From positions 1 through 60,611 of the IMG/VR virus record IMGVR_UViG_3300009788_000014: DNA of 60,611 nucleotides, one strand, 5' to 3'. The notes under the pieces were generated by a model. That model did not search any database. It saw only the letters and a program-made list of their open reading frames with translations, and was not told the origin of the DNA. The translations under genes were made by a program, and so were the position numbers. Positions 41,481 to 53,279 of the stretch are shown here, one piece after another. Origin of the DNA: a virus. The stretch's first letter is position 1. Each line of letters begins with the position of its first letter.

Positions 41481-41788
41481 GGCGCCCCCCGGGAGCCCTC
41501 AACGAAGCCCGGGCGGCGCGATGCGTCCCGTGGTGGCGGACATGTGTCGGCTGCGGGTATCAATTCCGGTGGGAAGGTTCGTGGCGCGGCCGGTGGGCCG
41601 TGGACCAATTCCCGAGAGTCTGGCTCCGGCGGTGGGTCTGTAGCGTCTGCGCCGCGACCCGCGCAGACGCTCAGAAGTTCTTCGGCCTCTGGCGCCCGCC
41701 GAGGCCTACCGGGCCACCACCACCCAGCCCTCCGCTACGCCGCATCGGGAGAAGCCCGGGTGGAAGCGCGGGTTTCCACCTCTTCTAG
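41477..41788 (+). CDS. Cys-rich basic protein, 103 aa (cassette gene 3)
   Basis: MRRPPGALNEARAARCVPWW, then CVGC and CSVC pairs about 28 residues apart: a probable zinc ribbon rich in Trp and Arg. The Pro-rich C-terminus overlaps the portal gene end by 54 bases on the other strand. Function unknown. Confidence 0.55.
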   Translation: MRRPPGALNEARAARCVPWWRTCVGCGYQFRWEGSWRGRWAVDQFPRVWLRRWVCSVCAATRADAQKFFGLWRPPRPTGPPPPSPPLRRIGRSPGGSAGFHLF

Positions 41789-43090
41789 GAAGTAGCGATC
41801 GTCGCCGCCGTCGATCGGTCTGAGGCCAGCCGCTGTCCTGACGTCGTTCTCCAGGAAGCCCCGAGGCTCGGCCTTCATCAGCTCCACCCTGTCATCCTCG
41901 GGATCCAGGGGCGGCAGCCGGTAGCCCACGATCCAGTCGCCCTCGTACTCGGGGCGGCCGTTCGGGGGCCGAGGCTCGAAGAAGCGAACCTGGAGCCAGT
42001 TCCGGCGGGACTCGAGGTCCGGCGTCACGCGGTTCGTCCTCACGAATGACTCTGCCTCGCGGGCGGTAGCGCGGTTCGAGCTCTCCGTCTGTCCGATGAT
42101 CGCCGGCGGCACGCGCCAGACCTGGAGGATCGCGTCTCTGCGGTTCTTCTGCCCCTCCTCGACCTGGATGTCAGCGGGGCTGTGCGCCAGGTCTTTGACC
42201 ACGATACCGGCGGTTCCGCCTACGCCCGGCTGGAGCGGCGGGTAGCCCACGAAGTGGGTATAACCGGCGTGGCGCGGACCGCTGTGGGCTCTCCAGGCCG
42301 CCTGGAAGCGCTCATCCTCAGCCGGTCCGAGGCCGGGAGCCATGACCAGCAGACCGGGCCTCGCGTTGTTCCTGAACATCGCCGCCTGATACTGCGCGGC
42401 TGATTCGTTGATCTGGATCTCGTGGTCGAGAGCCCCGGCGACGCCGGAACCGGCTCCATAGAAATCATCCGGGCGGGGCTGTCGGTACCAGGCCACCTCC
42501 TCCGGCGGATAGTCAAAGGCGCCGATCGTGAAGAAGGGCAGCCCGGGGCGCGGCGGGACGAGCCAGAGGGGCGAGACCGGCCACCAACGGACCGGGTGGC
42601 CCAGGGACGGATCGCGGAAGAGCACGTAGGCGAAGGAGCCGAGGAGGTCGAGGACGACACGCTCGAGCTTGTCGACCTCATACCCCGGGAGCTCAATCCA
42701 CGGAGGAGCTCCCTGCGTGCCCGCGGCCATCATTTCGAGGAATGGGTGGTCATTTACCTCCTCGAGGTCTCCTGCCTCGAGGGCAGCGGCCATGAGAGCG
42801 TCCTTCTCCCAGGCCCGGGCCGCCGTGATGCGGCGTCGCGCGCTCGACCTGGTCGGCTTGAGGAGAAACCAACTTGCCGCAGCCTCCCGGGCCGCGATGA
42901 CGTCGCCGGCGAGCCGCACCCACGGGTTCGTTGCCCAGAGGCGCGCGAGGCCGAAGCGCGTACGGCTACCGGCCAGTCCAGTGCCGATCGTTGCGCCGGC
43001 CCCGCCGGCGGCGAGGCTGCTGGCGAGCTCGACCGCCCGGGCATCGTCGAAGGTGGCGGCGGTCAAGGCGCGGGTCAGGGTTTGTAGCAT
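41735..43090 (-). CDS. Portal protein, 451 aa (HK97-like)
   Basis: Upstream of protease and capsid as in HK97-type modules. RLWATNPWVRLAGDVIAARE at the start, IELPGYEVDKLERVVLDLLG and WWPVSPLWLVPPRPG in the wing, then DIQVEEGQKNRRDAILQVWR, VPPAIIGQTESSNRATAREA and ESFVRTNRVTP: the classic portal stem/clip pattern (PxxIxG). Forms the dodecameric DNA gate at the capsid vertex. Confidence 0.9.
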   Translation of the reverse strand: MLQTLTRALTAATFDDARAVELASSLAAGGAGATIGTGLAGSRTRFGLARLWATNPWVRLAGDVIAAREAAASWFLLKPTRSSARRRITAARAWEKDALMAAALEAGDLEEVNDHPFLEMMAAGTQGAPPWIELPGYEVDKLERVVLDLLGSFAYVLFRDPSLGHPVRWWPVSPLWLVPPRPGLPFFTIGAFDYPPEEVAWYRQPRPDDFYGAGSGVAGALDHEIQINESAAQYQAAMFRNNARPGLLVMAPGLGPAEDERFQAAWRAHSGPRHAGYTHFVGYPPLQPGVGGTAGIVVKDLAHSPADIQVEEGQKNRRDAILQVWRVPPAIIGQTESSNRATAREAESFVRTNRVTPDLESRRNWLQVRFFEPRPPNGRPEYEGDWIVGYRLPPLDPEDDRVELMKAEPRGFLENDVRTAAGLRPIDGGDDRYFLEEVETRASTRASPDAA

Positions 43091-50611: not shown

Positions 50612-50970
50612 GTCGTCATCTCCTCTTTTGCTACATCCCCGAGATCGCCCACCACCTCATTCCAGTCAGGATCGTCCACGGCGGCAAAGGCTCGCATCTT
50701 CGCGACACCGGGAAACCTCTTGCGGTCCGCCGCGGTCGGTAGGCGTCCGCCGATTTCTACGAAGTTGAGAGGCCACTCTTTTGAGAGATGCTCGACTACG
50801 GCGTCCAGCGCTTCCGCCAGGTCGTCGAAGGGCGTCTCTTTCCCTGTCGTCGCCACGAAGGACGCTGCACGGGCGTACCGGAGCCAATCCTCCAGCGTTT
50901 GCCTTGCAGCGCGCAGACGGGCGAGCACTCTTTCAGAATCGGGCAGGGGAACTGGATGGATTACGGTCAT
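50608..50970 (-). CDS. Hypothetical protein, 120 aa
   Basis: MTVIHPVPLPDSERVLARLR; helical with FDDLAEALDAVVEHLSKEWP and an acidic end. ATGA-coupled on both sides. Not recognised. Confidence 0.65.
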   Translation of the reverse strand: MTVIHPVPLPDSERVLARLRAARQTLEDWLRYARAASFVATTGKETPFDDLAEALDAVVEHLSKEWPLNFVEIGGRLPTAADRKRFPGVAKMRAFAAVDDPDWNEVVGDLGDVAKEEMTT

Positions 50971-51830
50971 CGCGTCATCTCCTCGAAGAGGCTCGCTTGC
51001 CTCGGTTGATCGATCGCGGCGGGTGAGATGTCCGTCAGGAAGGCCGGCAGCTCCTGGATCAGCTCGCCGTCGAGGAACGGATCGGCGCCGGGCCTGAGGC
51101 CGCTCGATTGCTTGTAGAAGAACGCCGTCCCGTATCCAGCGCAGACATGGCGCATCTCTCGCGCCCATATTTTCGGATCTTTCGGCGTGCCGCTCGGCCG
51201 CCGCTTCGGTCCGCTTTCGGCGCCATATATACACCAGTCGATTTTGCAAGCCCCGGCTGTCCAGAAATAGTGGTCGGCGAACTCGGCCAGCGGGCCGAGG
51301 GCTGGTTCGTAACTGACGAATCGGGCTGCGGCAGGAAGGTCCTGGAGTATGAATAATCGCTCGATCACCGCCACCCCGAGGTGTGCGTCCTTGTGCTCCA
51401 GTAGGCCGCTCTCTATGCTGGTCCCTAACATGACATTGGGGTAGCCGGCTCCCCAGTCCTTCGGCAAGAGGCCATGAATGTTCTGGGGCCGCTTCGTGAG
51501 GAGCAGCCATTTGAGCCACGGCGTAGCGGCGATCAGCGGCCACAGGTCCGCGATGATCTCTCGCTGTTCCTCGTCTCGGCTTTCTGCCCAGTCGCACATG
51601 GATCCCACGAATACCGAGCGCGGTTTGCCCGCCGCTTCCGCCTTGCGGTTCCAGATGATTGGCTGGCGCCAGTATGCGGCCCCCGTCCTTGGCCGCGGAC
51701 CGTTCGGTCCCCACACGCCGCGGAACATTGCCTCAGCGTAGCAATTCTTGCACCCGGTTGAAACAGCCCCACAGCCTTGCAGCGGGTTGAAGGTGTGGTC
51801 ACACCAGCTGATCCCTGTCTTCTCACCCAT
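50967..51830 (-). CDS. Phage Gp37/Gp68 family protein (DUF5131), 287 aa
   Basis: WCDHTFNPLQGCGAVSTGC followed by KNCYAE gives the C-x6-C-x2-C motif of the Gp37/Gp68 group (Cys about 20, 27, 30). SVFVGSMCDWAE, LLLTKRPQNI, and VSYEPALGPL and a CIYGAESGPKRRP segment further match. The Cys motif suggests an Fe-S radical-SAM-like enzyme; the reaction is unknown. Overlaps TerS by 8 bases. Confidence 0.85.
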   Translation of the reverse strand: MGEKTGISWCDHTFNPLQGCGAVSTGCKNCYAEAMFRGVWGPNGPRPRTGAAYWRQPIIWNRKAEAAGKPRSVFVGSMCDWAESRDEEQREIIADLWPLIAATPWLKWLLLTKRPQNIHGLLPKDWGAGYPNVMLGTSIESGLLEHKDAHLGVAVIERLFILQDLPAAARFVSYEPALGPLAEFADHYFWTAGACKIDWCIYGAESGPKRRPSGTPKDPKIWAREMRHVCAGYGTAFFYKQSSGLRPGADPFLDGELIQELPAFLTDISPAAIDQPRQASLFEEMTR

Positions 51831-52542
51831 TTGCTGCTCTCTTTGCGGCCTCTTGTTCGTCGGCGATCATCCCCATGATCTCCGCCGCGCGGTCCGCACA
51901 TTCCTCGTCCTTGCTCCGGAGCAACCGCAACATCTTGTCCCGCTGTTCCTCAACGCCCTCGTTGATCATGCTCTCCATGTCCAATGTCAGACGGTCGCGC
52001 CGGCCCCAGCTCTTGGGGTCCGTTCGTTCGAGCCACCACGCCGCGGCGTTCCAGTGGTTTGGCATTGCCGCTCGCACTTGGCGGGTGGCATAGGCGACGC
52101 CGACCTGTCTCGCTTGTTTAATAGCGGCGGAAAACTCGGAAAACTTGGTGGTCAGCCCCGCGGCTGCGTCCTTCTCGCCTTGGGTGTTCCATACGCCTGC
52201 CGTCTCGTCAGTGATGCCAGCCAGCACCGAGGCAGTGCAGCGGTAGTTTCCTGCGCTTATGATTTCGACCATCCTCCCCTGAAGCTCGTACGTGAGCAGG
52301 CAGGGCCGGCCTCCCGGGTTCTTCTTTTTCTCTTCCGGAGGATCGCTCGCCGCAGCCTCCGCGGGTTGGCACGGTGGCACCTTCTCTGCCCGGAACCATT
52401 CGAAGCCGACCCATTCTCCTTGTCGTCCGAAGCAGTACTCGTAAATGGACGTGTTCGTTTGCTTCTCTTCGTTGACTACGTACCGCCTGAACAGGTCGCA
52501 CACTTTGCAGTGCCCGCTTCCTTTCCATCTGTGCTTGCTCAT
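51823..52542 (-). CDS. Terminase small subunit-like protein, 239 aa
   Basis: GGRPCLLTYELQGRMVEII, NYRCTASVLAGITDETAGVW (HTH-like) and FSEFSAAIKQARQVGVAYAT, then NAAAWWLERTDPKSWGRRDR: the pattern of small terminase/DNA-binding subunits, with the WWLER-x-x-P-x-x-WGRR end. An N-terminal 50-residue extension with CKVC and CFGRQ is additional. Recognises packaging sites and delivers DNA to TerL. ATGA-coupled to the methyltransferase. Confidence 0.75.
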   Translation of the reverse strand: MSKHRWKGSGHCKVCDLFRRYVVNEEKQTNTSIYEYCFGRQGEWVGFEWFRAEKVPPCQPAEAAASDPPEEKKKNPGGRPCLLTYELQGRMVEIISAGNYRCTASVLAGITDETAGVWNTQGEKDAAAGLTTKFSEFSAAIKQARQVGVAYATRQVRAAMPNHWNAAAWWLERTDPKSWGRRDRLTLDMESMINEGVEEQRDKMLRLLRSKDEECADRAAEIMGMIADEQEAAKRAANG

Positions 52543-53279
52543 GTGGTTTCTTCCTTCATGTCCTCAACAATCTTTGCAAGGCGTCTGAATGCCAGCGCAG
52601 CCACGAGCGGAACTTGTCCATCGCCAAGGGCTTCAACGCGGTCCACGTCGTCGGCCATCCCATCCGCCACTCTTGCCACTTGGGATGGGGGATTCCACCC
52701 AGGATTTGCGCTGCGGGTGAGGGCGCACCTGCTCGTAAGCTCTTGCGCAGCCTGCTCACCATAGATAAGCGGGTGTCCATTTTTGCCGGGGTGGGCCAGT
52801 ATCCAGATCCTCTCCCTCTGATGAGGGGCGCCGACGTGGCACGCGCCGATACAATCCCAGACCGCATTATACCCGCTCTCGGCCAGGTCTCCGAGAATTC
52901 TTCCGAAGTACCGGTGAGCAAGGAGAGCTGGAACGTTCTCCAGGAACGCGTAGCGGGGTCGTACTTCGCCAATGATCCGGGCGGTGTCCGGCCACATGTT
53001 TCGGGAGTCATCGGCGCCTCGGCGTTTGCCCGCGGCGGAGAAGGGCTGACAGGGGAAGCCGCCGGAGACGACGTCAACTCGGCCGCCCCAGGGCCGGCCG
53101 TCGAAGGTCCGCACGTCATCAAAGATCTCGAAGGCTTCGAGGTGTCCGTCCCGTTGCCGGGCCCGGATGACTTCCTGCCGGTATGGGTTGTGCTCGACAG
53201 CGCAGACGGTTCGCCATCCGAGAAGGACGGAGGCGAGGAGTCCACCTCCTGCGCCGGTGAATAGAGAGAGCTCATTCAA
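52539..53279 (-). CDS. DNA cytosine-5 methyltransferase, 246 aa
   Basis: Motif I LSLFTGAGGG (5-13), motif IV GGFPCQPFSAAG (catalytic Cys 77), motif VI ENV (114-116), motif VIII QRERIW (154-159) and motif X EALGDGQVPLVAALAF (about 216-231). The target-recognition part is very short (about 45 residues). Start is TTG 53279, forced by motif I; the ribosome site is AGGAAGG. No endonuclease partner. The whole gene is also open in the +1 frame (see nested ORF). Confidence 0.85.
   Translation of the reverse strand: MNELSLFTGAGGGLLASVLLGWRTVCAVEHNPYRQEVIRARQRDGHLEAFEIFDDVRTFDGRPWGGRVDVVSGGFPCQPFSAAGKRRGADDSRNMWPDTARIIGEVRPRYAFLENVPALLAHRYFGRILGDLAESGYNAVWDCIGACHVGAPHQRERIWILAHPGKNGHPLIYGEQAAQELTSRCALTRSANPGWNPPSQVARVADGMADDVDRVEALGDGQVPLVAALAFRRLAKIVEDMKEETT
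52556..53275 (-). CDS. Nested +1-frame ORF inside the C5 methyltransferase, 239 aa
   Basis: ATG 53275 overlaps the upstream TGA as ATGA, a better start signal than the methyltransferase's TTG. The frame has no stop for 239 codons and carries ATSAPLIRGRGSGYWPTP (147-163) and HPKWQEWRMGWPTTWTALK then PLAMDKFRSWL. I recall such WPTP and LKPLAMDKF text in annotated phage proteins near dcm. The motifs are frame-shifted readings of dcm motifs VIII and X, so this is either real dual coding or a persistent shadow. Confidence 0.45.
   Translation of the reverse strand: MSSLYSPAQEVDSSPPSFSDGEPSALSSTTHTGRKSSGPGNGTDTSKPSRSLMTCGPSTAGPGAAELTSSPAASPVSPSPPRANAEAPMTPETCGRTPPGSLAKYDPATRSWRTFQLSLLTGTSEEFSETWPRAGIMRSGIVSARATSAPLIRGRGSGYWPTPAKMDTRLSMVSRLRKSLRAGAPSPAAQILGGIPHPKWQEWRMGWPTTWTALKPLAMDKFRSWLRWHSDALQRLLRT

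Follow-up and report, generated by a model that had tools for sequence, protein, structure and literature searches.

The window analysed here is a 60.6-kb virus record (60,611 nt, IMG/VR IMGVR_UViG_3300009788_000014), which carries on its minus strand a cytosine-C5 methyltransferase (MT) gene and, fully nested in the +1 frame of that gene, a second long open reading frame (ORF). The MT chain is referred to below as alpha and the nested product as beta. The features of the locus are the following:

52539-53279, minus strand: alpha, the MT ORF, catalytic chain of a cytosine-C5 MT, 246 aa, TTG start
52556-53275, minus strand: the full nested ORF, in the +1 frame relative to alpha, 239 aa, ATG start
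52556-53077, minus strand: the beta core (conserved protein sequence), 173 aa if the internal TTG is the start
53075-53077, minus strand: TTG, candidate internal beta start, from comparison of the site across relatives
52844-52987, minus strand: the conserved N-terminal beta segment, SLAKYDPATRSW...SETWPRAGIMRSG, lying over alpha motifs VI-VIII
52694-52798, minus strand: the putative beta target-recognition module, WPTPAKMD... to ...AQILGG, assigned through its PTP-module relatives
52643-52693, minus strand: the motif IX-like element of beta, IPHPKWQEWRMGWPTTW, with the highest constraint in the nested frame
52608-52631, minus strand: alpha motif X (ALGDGQVP), where the same DNA reads KPLAMDKF in beta

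The geometry is that of the original prediction, i.e. an MT that starts at TTG and a +1 nested ORF whose ATG, four bases inside the MT start, shares the sequence ATGA (53272-53275) with the upstream stop. Two words of the nested product had been taken for shifted readings of MT motifs VIII and X. LKPLAMDKF is indeed what the shifted frame reads over the motif X stretch (VEALGDGQVP), in which GNGQVP is conserved among relatives. GSGYWPTP is likewise a shifted reading of the MT frame, from the stretch that immediately follows motif VIII (RERIWILAHPG).

The terminase small subunit gene (51823-52542, minus strand; phrog_4102, 3e-25) begins at 52542 in a four-base overlap (ATGA) with the alpha stop, and because of this overlap the MT genes and the terminase may be translationally coupled. 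Its end is overlapped in turn by a gene for a DUF5131 protein (50967-51830, minus strand; PF07505, 3.6e-47), and a portal protein gene (PF04860) is located at 41735-43090 of the window.

Alpha shows motifs I, IV (GGFPCQ), VI (ENV), VIII (QRERIW; QxRxR) and X (ALGDGQVP). It matches phrog_363 (2.5e-63) and PF00145 (2e-34), the latter match being restricted to positions 2-163, and its alignment to M.HhaI covers 15-173 only, which corresponds to motifs I-VIII. The AF2 model of alpha (pLDDT 79, pTM 0.79) matches M.HaeIII and M.HhaI with E about 4e-11, and this structural match spans a stretch similar to that of the profile matches. The TRD and motif IX are not recognisable in alpha, and the canonical-MT profile matches stop after motif VIII.

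Relatives of the locus show how such a part can be arranged. Wachhund gp69, from a mycobacteriophage, is a single chain of 473 aa that presents motifs I-VIII, four PTP modules, PEWMMGWPAGW and IIGNGVVPQQ in one frame, and matches phrog_363 (1-155), phrog_1008 (282-472) and phrog_116 (1-469). Its PTP modules and EWMMGW element are placed between motifs VIII and X, with the PTP modules before motif IX. In Ruin, also a mycobacteriophage, alpha is gp79, which ends after motif VIII, and a separate gene in the +1 frame, gp78, harbors PTP modules, SEWMMGWEEGW and IIGNGVVV (motif X), matching phrog_1008 (1.7e-79) and the C-terminal part of phrog_116 (6e-9). The Arthrobacter phage PrincessTrina (L264) displays the same split 0/+1-frame form in gp81/gp82, with more modules, and in an archaeal contig (L216) it is the beta frame that contains motif X, alpha stopping after motif VIII. 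The order in Wachhund, Ruin and PrincessTrina puts the PTP modules at the place of the TRD and the W-rich element at the place of motif IX. Hence, one kind of enzyme occurs as a single chain (Wachhund), as two nearly adjacent genes (Ruin, PrincessTrina) and as two nested genes (the window), and the presence of all these forms in one family makes the origin of the overlapping gene traceable.

In addition to its single-chain MT, Wachhund retains in the +1 frame (L262:953-1570) one PTP module and the N-terminal segment of beta, AEYDPDTRSWKM...YSETWPKTGYMSDG; these look like the remains of a decayed nested beta or like one that is still in use. PrincessTrina has three consecutive annotated DNA methyltransferase genes, and gp82 carries a long series of PTP modules.

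The nested product of the window has both features, the 'PTP' modules and an 'EWxMGWPxxW' element, and IPHPKWQEWRMGWPTTW is homologous to the EWMMGW(P/E)xGW found before motif X in Wachhund gp69 and Ruin gp78. Its profile matches are to phrog_1008 (8.2e-17), labeled 'DNA methyltransferase', and to phrog_26627 and phrog_35493 (4e-9), which are short and of unknown function; Pfam and NCBIfam gave zero matches, and a PDB sequence search with the nested profile gave none. With tblastn the product was found in 82 phage records, from many hosts. The words that the original prediction placed in proteins annotated next to phage cytosine MTs turn out to belong to the overlapping frame itself (PHROG 1008, 'DNA methyltransferase'). 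A profile comparison (hhalign) made directly between beta and one canonical single-chain phage MT gave no match. The link to canonical MTs is indirect, running through phrog_1008 and the mycobacteriophage intermediates; in the hhalign comparison with Wachhund only the PTP modules aligned, and their repeats may inflate the scores. The AF2 model of beta alone is of low confidence (pLDDT 62, pTM 0.29) and found no PDB match with Foldseek; such a poor lone model fits a subunit, for which it may be expected. Taken together, the sequence comparisons make the nested product most likely the TRD- and motif IX-carrying second subunit of a split cytosine-C5 MT, a function that the original prediction had not put forward.

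When bacterial and archaeal genomes were scanned with the beta profile, 80 loci were obtained, and in about 76 of them a long alpha lies in the -1 frame over the beta stretch. Exceptions are L216, with its motif X in the beta frame, L205, in which both frames have stops, and L257, a short run at the motif with both frames open upstream. Another exception, from a Burkholderiales MAG (L258:3950-4130), is a deletion remnant that keeps the last ~45 codons of the pair beside unrelated sequence. In L228 and L245 the overlaps are unusually long, with about 430 and 415 codons, respectively, open in both frames.

This linkage bears on whether beta could be a real protein with a separate function, e.g. 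anti-restriction or regulatory, that overlaps the MT incidentally. The failure to match Pfam or NCBIfam, the poor lone model and the stretch of beta residues ~98-145, for which no counterpart was identified in canonical MTs, would all be compatible with such a protein. We nevertheless consider it improbable, as the same modules and a motif IX-like element occur in frame within a single-chain MT, beta is nearly always accompanied by an overlapping alpha, and alpha is devoid of the part that beta supplies. Little probability is also left to programmed ribosomal frameshifting, by which the second frame would be reached within an alpha-beta fusion instead of being made as a second chain: a +1 shift past motif VIII would produce a complete MT chain in Ruin-type loci, but in the window type a single +1 shift would lose motif X, because motif X is in the alpha frame, and the nested frame has conserved ATG/TTG start sites.

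Concerning these start sites, the nested ATG is present as AATGAG or AATGAA in 70 of the 76 loci with a readable alpha start; the alpha start itself is variable: it is ATG, GTG or TTG, and where TTA or CTT stands at that codon, the start lies upstream. An internal TTG or ATG, ~65 codons in, is found in 163 of 171 loci, and in all nine loci that have a nested stop upstream. Many relatives show AGGA or GAGGA at a suitable distance before this internal start (xxAGGA-ATTG-TTG), and the Shine-Dalgarno-like sequence is weak in the window and clearer in the relatives. Conservation of the internal start could be partly forced, because the alpha residues V-D limit the nested codons; GTT exceeds the other Val codons at that alpha site, however, and this excess is not forced by V-D. 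The conserved GTT at alpha V68 likely reflects the beta start codon, the alternative being a conserved Leu of a longer nested protein. The first ~65 nested codons are open yet weakly conserved.

The original prediction had left a choice between dual coding across many phages and a strong motif that creates a recurring false gene, to be decided by stops in the +1 frame of homologues and by constraint on MT synonymous sites. For the first, 82 loci were collected with the MT profile only, so that their selection is blind to the nested frame. The median number of stops over the MT match is 0.5 in the +1 frame and 15 in the +2 frame. Across 90 genes (80 from the blind set or the window, 10 from nested-frame hits), only 23 stops were observed in the +1 frame, some of them being the ATGA at the MT start, against 380 expected when synonymous codons are shuffled within each gene; the +2 frame shows 1283 against 1062 expected, and as the genes are related these totals are not independent counts. 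The +1 depletion persists at GC 0.43-0.50 and is absent in the controls, i.e. eight other window genes, two canonical phage MTs and Ruin gp79. Between alpha codons 66 and 225 all 82 aligned genes are free of nested stops, and the eight nested stops upstream of codon 66 are confined to five deep-branching loci.

In the window itself, at GC 0.63, the length of the nested ORF alone is weak evidence and only weakly significant (0 stops after the first codon against 2.9 expected, P(0) = 0.015). Sequence content, not length, is what decisively settles the reality of the frame: a beta profile made without the window scores 145.6 bits on its nested frame, whereas 1000 synonymous shuffles of the window MT reach a mean of 51.6 bits and a maximum of 89.6. 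Conservation was evaluated against a codon-shuffle null, with the +2 frame as a control for relatedness. The strongest constraint in the window's nested frame falls in the last ~145 residues, with z of 13-15 in the C-terminal WxMGWPxxW stretch and of about 7-9 in most sliding windows over residues ~98-145, and is weak over the first ~95 residues. The +2 control is lower across all constrained stretches, and the nested N-terminal part also exceeds it when more, closer sequences are included.

Substitutions tell which frame is selected. The central part of 191 beta loci was cut at 'PTP' starts into modules, of which there are one to five per beta in all but two loci, and which form 18 clusters each common to at least four loci. 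In the PTP modules (top clusters pooled, 31,000 codon pairs), differences per site at beta positions 1, 2 and 3 are 0.25, 0.21 and 0.58, and since beta position 3 is alpha position 1, alpha is the passenger there. The PTP modules of the relatives are under purifying selection in the beta frame. In the catalytic part the situation is the reverse, with differences falling mostly at alpha position 3, and two module clusters of the catalytic part show, as anticipated, the opposite positional pattern.

With stops in the +1 frame very rare and MT synonymous sites in the overlap constrained, dual coding across many phages is upheld and a false gene born of a strong motif is not. That MT conservation and codon bias merely keep open a recurring false ORF, which gene finders then call, is very improbable: high window GC, many long spurious ORFs in the window and the weak evidence of a 239-codon ORF on its own would suit it, but the stop depletion survives both synonymous shuffling and GC 0.43-0.50 and is missing from control genes, and PTP-module substitutions avoid beta positions 1 and 2 to land on alpha position 1. 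The nested frame is a real gene.

We therefore regard it as highly probable that two overlapping frames of the locus encode the two subunits of one cytosine-C5 MT, alpha and a beta that provides the TRD and motif IX. Protein-level selection acts on beta, which has homology to the TRD-IX part of C5 MTs and overlaps alpha in nearly all the beta loci examined. For the translation of beta, its assembly with alpha, and the activity, target sequence and biological role of the enzyme, we infer the following scheme. The TTG-started frame would give alpha, with AdoMet binding, the catalytic PCQ loop and the motif X end, and the +1 frame would give beta, with the target-recognition module(s) and motif IX. 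Beta would be translated from its own start, which may be the ATG four bases inside alpha, the internal TTG/ATG, or both. The two chains would assemble into the usual C5-MT plan (I-VIII from alpha, TRD-IX from beta, X from alpha), and the assembled enzyme would methylate phage DNA, probably against host restriction. On balance we also favor, with less assurance, that beta is the specificity subunit of a widespread phage and prophage MT family, mostly with one to five modules that are shuffled between phages, with alpha as a passenger in these modules, its frame remaining open only so that motif X can be reached. If so, phages would change or add methylation targets through swaps in an overlapping gene.

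Compared by description, M.EcoHK31I is the nearest precedent. The gene for its small subunit lies within that for the large subunit, in a different frame, and the product of about 176 aa is similar in length to the window beta core (173 aa). It is a C5 MT for YGGCCR made of two subunits (Lee et al. 1995, described in PMC3404938); the large subunit holds motifs I-VIII and X, and the small subunit holds motif IX (PMC3404938). This resembles the window, where alpha has I-VIII and X and beta has IX by homology through intermediates. The predicted TRD of M.EcoHK31I is, however, assigned to the large subunit (PMC3404938), whereas in the window the TRD region is selected in the frame of the small one; moreover, the window type is a broad phage and prophage family, mostly with one to five modules. 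In M.AquI, a two-subunit C5 MT for CYCGRG, one chain bears motifs I-VIII, the other bears IX-X, and the variable region is split between the two. Ruin, PrincessTrina and L216 are similar to it, the small chain bearing motifs X and IX in Ruin and L216, but the window has motif X on the large chain and beta wholly inside alpha. The multispecific phage C5 MTs of the SPR/phi3T group hold several TRDs in a single chain. They share with the window family, as predicted here, several target-recognition units in one enzyme, but in the latter the modules are in a second, overlapping frame. The original work on the SPR/phi3T group is cited in PMC4081073 and PMC12707154. The hidden HNH frame of the ShiLan methylase (PMC11855218) is a different overlap, within an insertion. 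A literature search of partial coverage found no paper on such a phage MT overlap, and the apparent novelty lies in the breadth of this overlap and in a TRD, built mostly of one to five exchangeable modules, that is carried by the nested frame.

Overlaps of this length on the same strand (mostly 230-430 codons) that are conserved among the phages and prophages of many bacterial groups are unusual, and in this one a function can be assigned to the second frame. Among the annotated nested-type records examined, four give the nested frame only (PA-G, Vibrio 1.291, SOVA965 and Mwe-JY08), seven give alpha only (ct2t2046, S9-5, BUCT711, Vibrio 1.003, ABMM1, Hades and a Leptospira plasmid), and none gives both. 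Because the records give one frame only, the specificity subunit may have been missing when some phage MTs were cloned or studied. In some annotated records the nested frame is itself labeled as the MT.
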